Assembly: GCA_003157485.1 (NCBI GenBank)
Contig: PMJQ01000184.1
Coordinates: forward strand, 1,931 to 41,344
Direction: 5' to 3'
From: Ignavibacteriota bacterium
Lineage (GTDB): Bacteria; Bacteroidota; Ignavibacteria; UBA10030; UBA6906
DNA length: 39,414 nt
Shown here: positions 13,773 to 20,757 of the stretch, piece after piece
How the letters are laid out: each line of letters opens with the position of its first letter
How positions within the stretch are numbered: the stretch's first letter is position 1
Notes under the pieces: generated by a model
What the model was told of the DNA's origin: nothing
The model's input: the letters and a program-made list of their open reading frames with translations, nothing else
Databases searched by the model: none
Translations under genes and position numbers: made by a program

Positions 13773-13826
13773 TTAACACAAACTTAACCTCCCCTTTACA
13801 CCGGCGTAATCTCCGGAATGTATATT
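13773..13826 (+). promoter_or_regulatory. Candidate PhoB/PhoP-controlled promoter P1: four 11-bp repeats plus TATATT
   Basis: TTAACA (13773), TTAACC (13784), TTTACA (13795), GTAATC (13806), exact 11-bp spacing; TATATT at 13821. Confidence 0.75.
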
Positions 13827-13832
13827 GCGTCA

Positions 13833-13970
13833 CCTTCGGCCGGATGGCGCGGACGCCGGAGGATCCCCCGTTGTCGGACATCACCGGCGGGCTTCGCCCG
13901 CGGGAACAGTACGGGCCCCTTCGGCAGAACCTGACCCCTGCCTACCGGGGGCCCTGCTGTTCTTCTCACC
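13833..13970 (+). ncRNA. Candidate structured non-coding RNA or leader between the two Pho promoters
   Basis: Downstream of P1: hairpin GCGGGC-TTC-GCCCGC (13887-13901) and a nested stem GGGCCCC (13913-13919)/GGGGCCC (13948-13954) enclosing GGCAG (13923-13927)/CTGCC (13938-13942); then pyrimidine-rich TGCTGTTCTTCTC. No convincing ORF. Confidence 0.35.
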
Positions 13971-14021
13971 CACGAAGGCGACTCCTGTGCGTTTTGGTAT
14001 CAGTTTCGCGCGAATGTGACA

Positions 14022-14075
14022 TTAACAATTCCTTAACACGGGGGTAATACTGGGGTAACGGTTGTGACGTATATT
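14022..14075 (+). promoter_or_regulatory. Candidate PhoB/PhoP-controlled promoter P2: four 11-bp repeats plus TATATT
   Basis: TTAACA (14022), TTAACA (14033), GTAATA (14044), GTAACG (14055), exact 11-bp spacing; TATATT at 14070. Confidence 0.8.
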
Positions 14076-14151
14076 ATCGCCCGCAGGGGTCGATCCATCC
14101 GCGCAGTCAATCAAGCCAATTCCCATCCATACACCATTTCAAAGAGGTGGT

Positions 14152-15339
14152 ATGAAACGCATTGTTATTCTCCTTTGTACACTTGCGACCCTTGGGGTCA
14201 ACCTGGCAGGCGCCCAGGGAAAATTCTCCGGATATGTCTTCGGGGACTATTTCTATAATGTCGGGAAGGACACGGCATTCTCCAAGCTCTCCAGGACCGT
14301 CCTCCCCGGAACGAAGGACTTCCAGGCATTCCAGATCCGCCGGGTCTACCTGACCTACGACAACGATATTTCGGAAAAATTCACCGCGCGGTTCCGGCTG
14401 GAAGGGAATACGATCGCGTCGGAGGGCGGAGCGTCGTCGGTTGCATCGCGTCTAAGCGGAAGCTCCCTCTCGCAGCTTTACATCAAAGATGCCTATCTGA
14501 AATGGAAGAACGTGTTTTCAGGAAGCGACCTGATATTCGGCGTTCAGCCCACGACCGCGTATGACATCTCCGAAGGCGTCTGGGCGTATCGGTCTCTCGA
14601 AAAGACGATAATGGACCTCCGCGGGATCATCTCCTCGCGCGACATGGGCTTGGCTCTGAAGGGTAAATTCGACGACGGCGGCATGTTCCAGTACTGGGTC
14701 ATGCTCGGAAACAACAGCGGCCAGGACGACGCGAACAACAAGCATAAGAGGGCGTCACTCAATCTCCAGATCAAGCCCGTCAAGAACGTGATCGTCGATC
14801 TCAACGGCGACTATATCAGCCGCGCCGATATCAACGACCCCGCCAGCACGACGGTACCGAAGGCGACAAAATCCAATGACATACTCACGTACTCGATATT
14901 CGCGGCGTACAACGATCCGACGCTTGTGACGATCGGTGTCGAAGCCTTCATGCAGCAGACGCAGAACGGCGAAGTGGATCCGGGAGACGCCACGGGAAAA
15001 ACGCTCAAGTCGCTCAGCGCGCTCGGCGTGAGCATTTTCGGCTACTACTGGTTCACCCCCGAGATCGGCGCTGTTGCCCGGTACGACATGTTCAATCCCG
15101 TGACCGACAGCAACTATCCTGCAGCGCCGACGGCGACGCTGTCGGGTTCCGCGTCATACCCGTATTCGCTCTCGCGGAATTATATCGTCGCCGGATTGTT
15201 GTTCCGACCCGACAAAAACGTGCAGATCATGCCGAACGTACAGGTAGAGACGTACCAGGCCCCGCGGAATGTCCCGAACGCGCCGTCAATCAGCTCCTCC
15301 GTGACCGCGCGGCTGACGTTCTACTGGGTGTTCCTCTGA
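14152..15339 (+). CDS. Outer-membrane porin, probably phosphate-selective (OprO/OprP-like role inferred from context)
   Basis: Signal peptide MKRIVILLCTLATLGVNLAGAQ; beta-strand-rich sequence; IRRVYLTYDNDISEKFTARFRLEGN; C-terminal aromatic ending TFYWVFL; directly upstream of pstS. Confidence 0.75.
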   Translation: MKRIVILLCTLATLGVNLAGAQGKFSGYVFGDYFYNVGKDTAFSKLSRTVLPGTKDFQAFQIRRVYLTYDNDISEKFTARFRLEGNTIASEGGASSVASRLSGSSLSQLYIKDAYLKWKNVFSGSDLIFGVQPTTAYDISEGVWAYRSLEKTIMDLRGIISSRDMGLALKGKFDDGGMFQYWVMLGNNSGQDDANNKHKRASLNLQIKPVKNVIVDLNGDYISRADINDPASTTVPKATKSNDILTYSIFAAYNDPTLVTIGVEAFMQQTQNGEVDPGDATGKTLKSLSALGVSIFGYYWFTPEIGAVARYDMFNPVTDSNYPAAPTATLSGSASYPYSLSRNYIVAGLLFRPDKNVQIMPNVQVETYQAPRNVPNAPSISSSVTARLTFYWVFL

Positions 15340-15383: not shown

Positions 15384-16418
15384 ATGAAAAAGACGAACAT
15401 TATCATCGCGGCGGGGCTCCTGCTGGCCTGTGTCGCCCTCCCCGCTGCGGCGCAGTTGAAATTAAACGGCGCAGGAGCGACATTCCCGTATGTCATCTAC
15501 TCGAAGTGGTTCGATGTGTACCACACGAAGACGGGCATTGAATTCAACTACCAGTCCATCGGAAGCGGCGGGGGAATCAAGCAGATCACCGAAGGGACTG
15601 TCGATTTCGGTGCCTCCGATGCACCGATGTCTGATGCCCAGCTCAAGGACGCCGAGGACAAACAGGGGACTCCCATCATTCACATTCCAACGGTGATGGG
15701 CGCTGTGGTCCTCACCTACAACATCCCGGGCGTGCAAACTGGACTTCACATCACGCAGGAGGCGCTCGCGGAAATCTACCTCGGCACGATCACGAAATGG
15801 AATGATGCCAAGATCACAGAGGCGAATCCCGGAAAGACGCTCCCTGACCTGTCGATCATTGTCGCTCACAGGTCGGACGGGAGCGGCACCACCAATATCT
15901 TCACCGACTACCTGACGAAAGTAAGCCCCGACTGGTCGACGAAAGTCGGCAAAGGCCCTTCGGTGAACTGGCCTGTCGGGCTCGGCGGGAAAGGGAACGA
16001 GGGTGTTGCGGGAATCATCAAACAGTCCGAGGGTTCGATCGGCTACGTGGAGCTGGCGTACGCGGTCAAGAACTCGCTTCCATATGCCCTCATACGAAAC
16101 AAGGCAGGGGAATACCCGGAACCCACGTTCGAGGCAGTTTCGATGGCGGCGGCGGGAGCGGCAAAGAACATGCCCGAAGATCTCCGCGTCATGATCACGA
16201 ACGCGGACGGGAAGGGCTCATACCCCATCTCCGGGTTCACCTGGCTCCTCGTGTACAAGAACATGAAGGACGTGGAGAAGCATGACGCGCTCGTCAAGTT
16301 CCTCCGCTGGGCCATGACGGAAGGTCAGACGTACGCGAAGGACCTGTATTATGCCCCGCTTCCTAAGGAAGTCGTGAAGCTGAACGAGGCGAAGATCTCT
16401 TCTCTCGGCACCAGGTAA
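15384..16418 (+). CDS. pstS: Phosphate ABC transporter substrate-binding protein PstS
   Basis: LNGAGATFPYVIYSKWFDVYH; YQSIGSGGGIKQITEGTVDFGASDAPMSD; HRSDGSGTTNIFTDYL; GSIGYVELAYA. Confidence 0.97.
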   Translation: MKKTNIIIAAGLLLACVALPAAAQLKLNGAGATFPYVIYSKWFDVYHTKTGIEFNYQSIGSGGGIKQITEGTVDFGASDAPMSDAQLKDAEDKQGTPIIHIPTVMGAVVLTYNIPGVQTGLHITQEALAEIYLGTITKWNDAKITEANPGKTLPDLSIIVAHRSDGSGTTNIFTDYLTKVSPDWSTKVGKGPSVNWPVGLGGKGNEGVAGIIKQSEGSIGYVELAYAVKNSLPYALIRNKAGEYPEPTFEAVSMAAAGAAKNMPEDLRVMITNADGKGSYPISGFTWLLVYKNMKDVEKHDALVKFLRWAMTEGQTYAKDLYYAPLPKEVVKLNEAKISSLGTR

Positions 16419-16423
16419 TTGTT

Positions 16424-17443
16424 GTGACACAGGAATCATCGGCAATTCCTCTTACAGGTGGAACGACAGGCGACGGGGGGGGGAATCCTCCCCCCGTCGC
16501 TTCTGTGCCTCACTTGCGCGTCGCGCATATTCGGTGGAACGTCGGCGATTTCGTCTTCAAGCACCTGACGATGCTCTTTGCCATCGGCGTGCTTTCACTC
16601 GTGTTCCTGATGGGGTACGAGATGTACGCCGGGTCAGCACTCACGATATCGAAGTTCGGATGGAATTTCCTTGTCACGAGCGTCTGGGACCCTGTTCAGG
16701 AACAGTACGGCGCGCTCCCGCTCATTTACGGAACACTCCTCTCGTCGTTTCTCGCTCTGTTGATTTCCCTTCCCCTCAGTCTGGGCGTGGCAATCTTCCT
16801 TTCTGAGCTTTCGCCGCGGTGGCTGGAACGGCCGCTGTCGTTTCTGGTCGAGCTCCTGGCGGCGATACCGAGCATCGTGTATGGCCTCTGGGGGGTATTC
16901 GTCCTGGTCCCGTGGCTCAGGGTGACTGTTGAGCCATGGCTCGCTTCCCATTTCGGAAGCCTGCCGTTTTTCAAGGGCCCTGCATACGGCTTTGGAATGC
17001 TGGCTGCCGGGCTCATCCTGGCAGTGATGGTTCTTCCCATTATCGCCTCCATCTCCAGGGATGTGCTGCAGGCGATTCCGAACCTCCAGCGCGAGGCGGC
17101 GCTTGGCCTGGGTGCAACGCGCTGGGAGACGACAAGGGTCATCCTCTCGACTGCGAAATCCGGAATACTCGGCGCCACGCTGCTGGGGCTCGGGCGTGCG
17201 GTGGGGGAGACGATGGCCGTGACGCTTGTCATCGGGAATCGCTCGGAGATATCGGCGTCATTGTTCAATCCGGCGTATAGCATGGCAAGCGTGATTGCGA
17301 ACGAATTCTCGGAAGCGACATCATCGATGTATACAAGCGCTCTGATTGAGATCGCGTTTGTTCTTTTCGTGATGACGATCATCCTGAACGCTCTCGCCCG
17401 CATCATCGTCTGGAGCGTGACCCGAAGGTTTAAGACGGCATGA
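16424..17443 (+). CDS. pstC: Phosphate ABC transporter permease PstC
   Basis: Multi-TM permease; ELLAAIPSIVYGLWGVFVLVPW; EAALGLGATRWETTRVILSTAKSGILGATLLGLGRAVGETMAVTLVIGN. Confidence 0.96.
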   Translation: MTQESSAIPLTGGTTGDGGGNPPPVASVPHLRVAHIRWNVGDFVFKHLTMLFAIGVLSLVFLMGYEMYAGSALTISKFGWNFLVTSVWDPVQEQYGALPLIYGTLLSSFLALLISLPLSLGVAIFLSELSPRWLERPLSFLVELLAAIPSIVYGLWGVFVLVPWLRVTVEPWLASHFGSLPFFKGPAYGFGMLAAGLILAVMVLPIIASISRDVLQAIPNLQREAALGLGATRWETTRVILSTAKSGILGATLLGLGRAVGETMAVTLVIGNRSEISASLFNPAYSMASVIANEFSEATSSMYTSALIEIAFVLFVMTIILNALARIIVWSVTRRFKTA

Positions 17444-18297
17444 GAACGAACGAGAAGCTGTATCTCCTCTGGCGGAAGGCAAAGAACAACGCCATGCTGG
17501 CGTTCTCCCTGGCATGTCTTCTCCTCGCTCTCGTGCCGCTTGTCCTCATTTTTTCTTACACGTTGATCCAGGGGATATCCGCGATCAACCTTGATTTCTT
17601 CATTCAGATGCCGAAGCCTGTCGGCGAAACGGGGGGCGGGATGGCGAATGCCCTCGTGGGGACCGGCATACTCATCGGGCTCGGGGGCCTCTTCGGCCTG
17701 CCGGTCGGCATCCTGGCGGGAATCTACCTTGCTGAGTACGGCGACAATCCCCTCGGAGGGACGGTCCGGTTTCTTGCAGACGTCCTGAGCGGGATACCCT
17801 CCATCATCGTCGGCGTCGTTGCGTATATCATTGTTGTTCTCCCGATGAAGCATTTCTCCGCCCTCGCCGGCGGCGTCGCGCTTGGGATCCTGATGATCCC
17901 CACGGTGACCCGGACGACAGAGGAGATGATACGGCTTGTCCCCCAGTCGTACAGGGAAGCGGGACTGGCGATCGGCATCCCTCGATGGAAAACGACGCTG
18001 AGAATAATACTCCCGACGGCGCTCAAAGGGATAACGACCGGGATCCTCCTGGCAATCGCCCGGGCTGCGGGTGAAACCGCGCCGCTCCTGTTTACGGCAC
18101 TCGGCAACAGGTTCTGGTCAACCGCGATCGATCAGCCGATTGGCTCCCTGACCGTGTTCATTTATGATTATGCGAAATCTCCCTTTGAGGACTGGATCAG
18201 GCAGGCATGGGGAGCTGCGTTTGTGCTGATCGCACTCATTTTTGCACTCAGCGTCATATTCAGAATCGTTACGCGGAGTCGTTATGCGGAGCATTGA
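17440..18297 (+). CDS. pstA: Phosphate ABC transporter permease PstA
   Basis: ATGA overlap with pst[71 protein letters not shown]. Confidence 0.96.
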
Positions 18298-19120
18298 TCT
18301 GGCAACAACTTCCGAGAGGAAAGTCATGGATGTCCCTTCAGACCAGCCGTCGCCTGCCGCGAAGGCGGGGGAGCCGGCGAAAATGGTCGCGAGAAATGTT
18401 GACGCATTCTTCGGCAAGACTCAGGCGCTGAAGAAGGTGAGTCTCGAAGTGGCAACGAACCGCGTCCTTGCGATCATAGGTCCCTCGGGATGCGGGAAAT
18501 CGACGTTCCTTCGCTGCCTCAACAGGATGCATGAAGTCGCCTCGGGGACGATGAAAGGCACAATCACGCTTGACGGGCAGAACATATTGCAGATTGACGA
18601 AGTGAACCTGCGGCGCCGGGTCGGGATGGTATTTCAGAAGCCCAACCCCTTTCCCACGATGTCGATATTCGACAATGTGGCTGCCGGGCTGAGGTTTAAC
18701 GGGCATCACAACCGGAAACACCTCGCAGAAGTCGTCGAACGATGCCTCCGCCAGGCCGCGCTCTGGGACGAGGTGAAGGATTCGCTCAACAAATCCGGGA
18801 TGAGCATCTCCGGCGGTCAGCAGCAGAGGCTGTGCATCGCAAGGACGCTGGCCGTGAGCCCGGAGGTCGTCCTCATGGACGAGCCGGCGAGTGCGCTCGA
18901 CCCCCTCTCGACAGCCAAAATCGAGGAGTTGATTTACGAACTGAAGCAGAATTACACGATCGCGATCGTGACGCACAACATGCAGCAGGCGGCCCGGGTG
19001 AGCGACATGACGGCGTTCTTCTATCTGGGTGAGCTCATCGAAATAGGTGAGACGAAGCGGATATTCACGACGCCGGAGAAGAGACAGACGGAAGATTACA
19101 TCACGGGCAGGTTCGGCTGA
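18284..19120 (+). CDS. pstB: Phosphate ABC transporter ATP-binding protein PstB (start may be further 3')
   Basis: Walker [65 protein letters not shown]. Confidence 0.97.
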
Positions 19121-19121
19121 C

Positions 19122-19793
19122 ATGGAGCGTCATTTCGAGCGGGAGCTTGAGGATCTCAAAGGGACCCTCGTCAACATGGGGAGCCTCGTGGACGGGCAGC
19201 TCGGGTCCGCATGCCGGGCCCTCTTTGAAGGAGACCTGTCGCGCGCGCGCGACGTCATGGACCGGGACAGGGAGGTGGATGCGTACGATACGCTGATCGA
19301 CAGGCAGTGCATGGATATATTTGCGCTGACGCAGCCCGTGGCAGTTGACCTGAGGCTCCTGATGTCCGCGCTTGCAATCAACTCGCAGCTTGAACGGATC
19401 GGGGATATCGCTGTGAATATCGCTGAGCGCGTAGAACCTCTCGTCGCGCACAGGGAGTTTCTCCTTTCCACGCGGCTCTCCGAGATGGCCGATATCGCAC
19501 GCATCATGGTGCGGGACAGCCTTGACTCGTTCATCCGCGGGGACGCCACGCTCGCCTCACGCGTTCTTGTCAGCGACGACGTCGTCGACAAACTTGACGG
19601 CGGGCTCTTCCGTACGCTCGTTGCCGAGATGAAGGGACACCACGAACGGGTTGAGCCAGCGGCGCACATACTCATACTTTCCCGCCATCTGGAACGGCTC
19701 GCCGACCATGCGACGAACATCGCCGAAGACGTCATATTCATCGTGGAGGCGAAACTGGTGAAGCATACCGCCGGGGAAGGGATCCGACCTTGA
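19122..19793 (+). CDS. phoU: Phosphate signalling protein PhoU, copy 1
   Basis: MERHFERELEDLKGTLVNMGSLVDGQLGSA; QPVAVDLRLLMSALAINSQLERIGDIAVNIAERV; LERLADHATNIAEDVIFIVEA. Confidence 0.95.
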   Translation: MERHFERELEDLKGTLVNMGSLVDGQLGSACRALFEGDLSRARDVMDRDREVDAYDTLIDRQCMDIFALTQPVAVDLRLLMSALAINSQLERIGDIAVNIAERVEPLVAHREFLLSTRLSEMADIARIMVRDSLDSFIRGDATLASRVLVSDDVVDKLDGGLFRTLVAEMKGHHERVEPAAHILILSRHLERLADHATNIAEDVIFIVEAKLVKHTAGEGIRP

Positions 19794-19902
19794 AAATTAC
19801 GCCGCTTCCTGGCGTGGCTGAAAGTCACGACGATTTTAGGCGTGATTGAAAATTACGCCGCTTCCTGGCGTGGCTGAAAGTCACGACGATCTTGGGCGTG
19901 AT
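19791..19902 (+). repeat. 56-bp tandem repeat, two copies, starting at the phoU1 stop codon
   Basis: TGAAAATTACGCCGCTTCCTGGCGTGGCTGAAAGTCACGACGATTTTAGGCGTGAT at 19791-19846 and again at 19847-19902 with two substitutions (ATTTTAG to ATCTTGG). A degenerate third unit starts at 19903. Confidence 0.95.
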
Positions 19903-19991
19903 TGAAAATCACGCAGCCTGTTTGCGTGACTGGATGTCACGCATTCAACCAGAATGGTTGAATATTTCGAATTCAACTGATTTGGTTGAAT
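19896..19991. repeat. Array of short inverted repeats (palindromic hairpins) following the 56-bp repeats
   Basis: GCGTGATT-GAA-AATCACGC (19896-19914), GCGTGACT-GGA-TGTCACGC (19924-19942), ATTCAACCA-GAA-TGGTTGAAT (19943-19963), ATTCAAC..GTTGAAT (19971-19991). Confidence 0.92.
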
Positions 19992-20055
19992 TCCGTCTCT
20001 TGCACATTCCGCGTTCATTAAGTATGTTGGAGTCATCATTTTCCGGACAGGTCCC

Positions 20056-20757
20056 ATGCAGCGTCACTTCGTCGAAGAGCTTGAGGCGGTAAAGACTAAC
20101 CTGATCAAGATGGGGAGCTTCGCGGAAGAAGCGATCGCCCAATCGATCAAGGCGCTCCTGGAGCGGAACGCGGACCTGGCACGCGAGGTCATCACCCGGG
20201 ACGAGAGGATCAACGAGATGGAAATCGAGATCGACGACGCCATCGTTGACCTTCTTGCCCTGCAGCAGCCTGTTGCCACGGACCTGAGGTTCATACTCGC
20301 CGCAATGAAGATCAACAACGATCTCGAGAGGATCGGGGACCATGCCGTAAACATCGCCGAGTCCGCTCTCCAGTATGCGGTGGGAAAGCCGGTCAGGCCG
20401 TTTGCCGATCTCCCGCACATGGCGCAGACAACGAAGGAAATGCTCCGCGACTCGATTGACGCGTTCATCCATGCAGACTCGGCGAAGGCGCGGGCGGTGC
20501 TCGTGAGCGATGATACGATCGACGACCTGAACAGGAAGATCGTCGCCGGGCTTGTGGCGGTCATCCGGGCCGAGCCGCCGCTTATCGAACAGGCGCTGGA
20601 CCTGATCCGCGTCAGCCGGAACCTTGAGCGCGTTGCCGACCTCTCCACGAATATCGCCGAGGAGGTGGTATTCATCGCCGAGGCGCACATTGTCAAGCAT
20701 AACGTCGAAAACAAACCCCCCTCCGTTCACCGCGAATCGGCTTCCGGGCAGTCGTAG
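20056..20757 (+). CDS. phoU: Phosphate signalling protein PhoU, copy 2
   Basis: [89 protein letters not shown]. Confidence 0.95.

Follow-up and report, generated by a model that had tools for sequence, protein, structure and literature searches.

Why would a porin-pst operon be preceded by two predicted Pho-type promoters of the same layout and orientation, with nothing except a hairpin between them? We approached this question in the window, the whole stretch of 39,414 nucleotides of DNA that was analysed, and in the genomes of relatives, designated here by number, with G000 for the genome that holds the window. A sequence-only reading of the DNA had placed eight hexamers in two arrays, each followed by a TATATT, and had set the arrays 249 bp apart. 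We located all eight hexamers and both -10 elements at the positions it gave, and the distance is indeed 249 bp:

13773-13811, + strand: array 1, made up of four Pho-type boxes with an 11-bp period (TTAACA at 13773, TTAACC at 13784, TTTACA at 13795, GTAATC at 13806), read from the sequence and conserved in G001 and G002.
13821-13826, + strand: TATATT, the -10 element of promoter 1; the last box begins 15 bp before it, and transcription would start near 13833.
14022-14060, + strand: array 2, made up of four Pho-type boxes with an 11-bp period (TTAACA at 14022, TTAACA at 14033, GTAATA at 14044, GTAACG at 14055), read from the sequence and conserved in G001, G002 and G003.
14070-14075, + strand: TATATT, the -10 element of promoter 2 (porin-pst); the last box begins 15 bp before it, and transcription would start near 14082.

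When scored as matches to four TTAACA boxes at 11-bp steps (maximum 24), array 1 reaches 19 and array 2 reaches 20. The 411-bp intergenic region was shuffled 4000 times with its dinucleotides preserved; neither score was attained, and the maximum of 17 was reached once. The identical four-repeat layout with its 15-bp spacing that had been claimed for both arrays holds good. Elsewhere in the 39-kb window, scores of at least 16 belong just to shifted self-copies and to one weak minus-strand site, and throughout the genome the pattern TTAACA-N5-TTAAC matches these two arrays only.

The gene upstream of the arrays is fmt. Array 2 is the promoter of the porin-pst-phoU operon; it lies directly ahead of the porin-like gene and is conserved in three congeners, as expected from the earlier proposal that one of the two starts drives this operon, which comprises the following genes:

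14152-15339, + strand: gene for a porin-like outer-membrane protein, first in the operon; weak Porin_O_P match, homologues in 31 of 60 relatives.
15384-16418, + strand: pstS (TIGR00975, above cut-off).
16424-17443, + strand: pstC (TIGR02138, above cut-off).
17440-18297, + strand: pstA (TIGR00974, above cut-off).
18242-19120, + strand: pstB (TIGR00972, above cut-off; exact start codon uncertain).
19131-19793, + strand: phoU, first copy (TIGR02135, above cut-off; start uncertain).
20056-20757, + strand: phoU, second copy (TIGR02135, above cut-off).

We call the first gene porin-like only; its match to Phosphate-selective porin O/P (PF07396) stands at 13.1 bits, below the gathering score of 20.9, with an E-value of 0.057. 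Two complete phoU genes stand in tandem after pstB (window 19131-20757).

Alignment with related genomes had been suggested as a check on the 11-bp phasing, and the phasing is kept: array 1 is identical at 37-38 of 39 bases in the congeners G001 and G002, and array 2 at 35-36 of 39 in G001, G002 and G003, with phase and 15-bp spacing preserved in these two and three congeners, respectively. The distance from array to array varies (249 bp in G000, 255 bp in G001, 246 bp in G002), a spread that led us to set aside DNA looping between them. G003 lacks array 1 together with the entire segment behind it, hairpin included, and its fmt gene is immediately followed by array 2; as array 2 alone is kept there, the operon seems to need no more than promoter 2. 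The loss would be explained by a deletion running from one direct-repeat array to the other.

With regard to the regulator, B. subtilis Pho boxes take the form TT(A/T)ACA. Published Pho boxes are 11-nt direct repeat units and the E. coli core is CTGTCAT (PMC4415409). The arrays described here resemble the boxes of PhoB (E. coli) and PhoP (B. subtilis) in being tandem 11-bp repeats upstream of a -10 element at the pst operon, whereas they differ in their consensus (TTAACA/GTAACG), in always having four boxes and in the exact 15-bp distance that separates the last box from TAnnTT. A search with this full pattern (four boxes plus TAnnTT at +15, at most two mismatches) gave 12 matches in G000 versus 2 for the reversed pattern used as control, and 83 versus 15 summed over 13 family genomes, an approximately 5.5-fold enrichment that was calculated for this family alone, since in AT-rich families array matches are mostly no better than control. 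In G000 the arrays precede genes for an endonuclease/exonuclease/phosphatase-family protein, a TonB receptor, a family-4 glycosyltransferase and a 64-aa putative membrane protein, and a further array precedes a 77-aa ORF that is followed by a PAP2 phosphatase.

Furthermore, in G032 and G039, which belong to other families of the order, an array and the porin are immediately preceded by a phoB-like and a phoR-like gene. A G000 protein encoded at C211, with a histidine kinase gene next to its own, is 64% identical to the G032 PhoB whose gene adjoins an array; the models it matches best are those of PhoB, although the PhoB and PhoR candidates both score below the curated cut-offs. We strongly infer that PhoB binds the arrays, because the array recurs at phosphate-type genes, because phoB-phoR adjoins the array in relatives and because the 11-bp repeats match published Pho boxes. 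Alternatively, the arrays might be bound by another OmpR-family regulator, given that the genome encodes several OmpR-type regulators and that its best PhoB candidate falls under the model cut-offs. We consider this quite unlikely: the genes behind the arrays are of phosphate type, the arrays are located at the porin-pst operon, and in the relatives it is phoB-phoR that adjoins both array and porin. The comparative evidence, namely conserved phase and spacing, the PhoB-like/PhoR-like pair and the arrays at phosphate-type genes, supports arrays 1 and 2 as Pho-type promoters presumably controlled by PhoB, and with them the proposal of two Pho-regulated starts. The rule itself (four boxes at 11 bp, 15 bp to TAnnTT) is usable for predicting the phosphate regulon in uncultured relatives.

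Several array-linked loci may be mentioned here in their own right. Three arrays with the 15-bp spacing lie inside about 3.2 kb of G000:C104:1-12000 (L094), at the 77-aa ORF with the PAP2 phosphatase, the endonuclease/exonuclease/phosphatase-family gene and the gene for a TonB-dependent receptor, and this region is likely a phosphate-scavenging cluster. At G000:C196:27460-27513 (L137) an array stands ahead of the family-4 glycosyltransferase gene, and in G005 (L147) a similar glycosyltransferase gene lies directly upstream of the porin promoter; the array-linked enzyme may have a role in lipid replacement under phosphate limitation.

What, then, would be transcribed from promoter 1? The segment behind array 1 contains the following features:

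13833-13965, + strand: predicted small RNA (sRNA) of about 130 nt, proposed from the identity profile and a stand-alone copy in G005; both ends are predicted.
13902-13964, + strand: conserved terminator-like hairpin of the sRNA, from folding and covariance-model matches in G000, G001, G002, G005 and G008.
13930-13941, + strand: invariant core CCUGACCCCUGC, 12 nt, in the apical loop and the 3' arm of the inner stem, identical in five genomes.

The hairpin folds at -37.8 kcal/mol (z = -5.65). Its stretch from 13906 to 13963 is 93-95% identical to G000 in G001 and G002, compared with 29-37% for the adjoining next 58 nt, and in the congener identity profile the 5' part of the predicted sRNA (to 13885) is variable and the 3' part conserved. 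A covariance model built from four copies, with the promoter array excluded, found a fifth copy in G005, a member of another genus, at E = 8.7e-4 for one genome. This copy lies about 4.8 kb upstream of the porin and has an array of its own (ATAACG/TTAACA/TTCACA/GTAACG, TATATT at +15), which serves as an independent test because the array was not part of the model; it is followed by GCCTTTTTT, a terminator with a U-tract, and then by a gene on the opposite strand. This arrangement marks the G005 unit as a putative Pho-array-driven RNA gene. The rebuilt model gave five good copies in 21 family genomes (G000, G001, G002, G005, G008), three of the five known copies coming from close congeners; weak matches in other genomes (E > 0.1) were not accepted. 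The hairpin is present in all five copies, an upstream array in four, and the U-tract in G005. Across these five genomes, which represent three genera, CCUGACCCCUGC is invariant, and the stems differ in sequence yet still pair. Matches to the pattern CNTGACCCCTGCC were many in relatives, and those inspected looked like chance sites, mostly within genes; the pattern misses the G005 copy, which reads CTGCT and which the covariance model recovers.

The two promoters are co-oriented with only the hairpin between them, so promoter 1 might instead be a second, upstream promoter of porin-pst; its segment would then be leader RNA, in which the hairpin acts as an attenuator or insulates against read-through. 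The G008 copy (L151, C38) would fit this, as its hairpin and invariant core adjoin the porin array on the upstream side and have no Pho array to themselves, although this hairpin may also be a relic or be read from an upstream PAP2-like gene. We regard the leader as an unlikely explanation, however, given that the G005 hairpin with its own array forms a separate unit some distance from the porin, closed by a terminator and an opposite-strand gene, and given that plain attenuators do not need a 12-nt loop core that is invariant across genera.

Alternatively, the segment might encode a short Pho-regulated protein. For instance, L007, L009, L012 and L013, from other families of the order, have a small ORF behind the array that precedes the porin, and a single frame through the core stays open in each of the five copies, giving LTPA every time. 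However, no start codon is common to the five copies, for which reason a conserved small protein was judged unlikely; nor do they share a ribosome site, and in G001 the open frame has no start. In addition, the candidate of this small-protein type in G000 sits elsewhere (C76), and it is the loop core that is invariant, the stems changing in sequence but not in pairing. A short protein is therefore very unlikely.

We return to the non-coding RNA, which array 1 probably drives; the broader reading of two Pho promoters with an sRNA made from promoter 1, leaving pairing out of the claim, we likewise hold to be probable. The sequence-only reading had assigned a separate product to the segment between the arrays, and this view gains from the conserved structured RNA and its stand-alone Pho-array gene in another genus, transcription being predicted in both cases. 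No Rfam family reached its gathering score in the window, with a loose threshold giving chance-level matches only, and the product of promoter 1 is most likely a previously undescribed sRNA.

A possible target lies close by. The porin-pst mRNA contains, close to its predicted 5' end, GCAGGGGUC, the complement of the CCUGACCCCUGC core:

14083-14091, + strand: GCAGGGGTC, which complements the core of the sRNA; it lies close to where the porin-pst transcript is predicted to begin, at a fixed place in five genomes.

Searching 21 family genomes for TATATT-N(2-22)-CAGGGGTC gave seven matches, five of which are the porin promoters of G000-G003 and G005, and in all five GCAGGGGTC lies 13 bp from the start of TATATT; the complement occurs at this fixed -10 distance in these genomes only. 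The complementarity between core and leader is 9-11 nt long, with 11 nt in G005 when its own core is used.

Does the sRNA pair with the porin-pst leader? We put this at somewhat below an even chance, and give equal weight to the alternative that the likeness of loop and mRNA site is due to chance or to another reason, such as protein binding or a promoter-proximal constraint, with the sRNA acting on other targets. The latter would account for G008, whose leader has GGGUCA only and lacks the full site despite the invariant core, as well as for G003, which keeps the mRNA site and has no sRNA; moreover, core and site are both GC-rich and do not covary, and a 9-nt complement occurs in 0.5% of random windows. 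Against it, sRNA and site occur together in 4 of the 21 family genomes, with one genome having each alone (one-sided Fisher 0.004, uncorrected for descent), and G005, from another genus, has a longer complement at the same distance from the -10. If the two RNAs do pair, the outcome, as both would be co-induced, could be a more stable mRNA 5' end or a weaker response.

Trans-acting sRNAs whose seed lies in a stem-loop have their own promoter, an invariant core complementary to an mRNA leader, and a terminator-like 3' hairpin; the RNA proposed here would share these features and differs in that the seed would be part of the terminator hairpin, at its apical end, and we know of no chaperone dependence for it. 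We propose that under phosphate limitation phosphorylated PhoB would bind the four 11-bp repeats, which replace a -35 element, and would activate both promoters. Promoter 2 would give the porin-pstSCAB-phoU transcript, and promoter 1 an sRNA of about 130 nt ending in the terminator-like hairpin that displays CCUGACCCCUGC. The core would probably pair with GCAGGGGUC, close to the start of the porin-pst mRNA that is induced along with the sRNA, and so tune the stability or use of this mRNA. As a whole, the notion of a lineage-specific sRNA family that is transcribed from a copy of the pst-type promoter, and that forms a feed-forward loop by pairing with the initial nucleotides of the pst mRNA, is a tentative one that we rate as less probable than the pairing. 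If true, the phosphate regulon would control its main operon at transcription and afterwards via the mRNA 5' end.

Phosphate-responsive sRNAs are already known in Proteobacteria. In Sinorhizobium meliloti there are sRNA genes with predicted PhoB sites or sRNAs that rise in phosphate limitation (PMC2573895, PMC8829014), and a PhoB-induced sRNA of E. coli acts on rpoS, as cited in PMC8829014. In the literature searched we found no description of a Pho-controlled sRNA in Ignavibacteria, to which the present sRNA would extend them. It is like the Proteobacterial sRNAs in its predicted link to a PhoB site or to phosphate limitation, whereas it shares no sequence family with them (no Rfam match), its gene has the same array architecture as the adjoining pst promoter, and its predicted target is the pst mRNA. 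The locus offers a concrete test case, with one RNA, one promoter, one predicted site of 9-11 nt, G003 as a natural loss and G005 with an unlinked copy.

Finally, in L007, L009, L012 and L013 the slot that is held here by the sRNA is taken by a putative one-helix membrane protein of 48-59 aa, behind an array-like stretch that precedes the porin. At G000:C76:118475 (L113) a 64-aa ORF of that membrane-protein kind lies behind an exact array.
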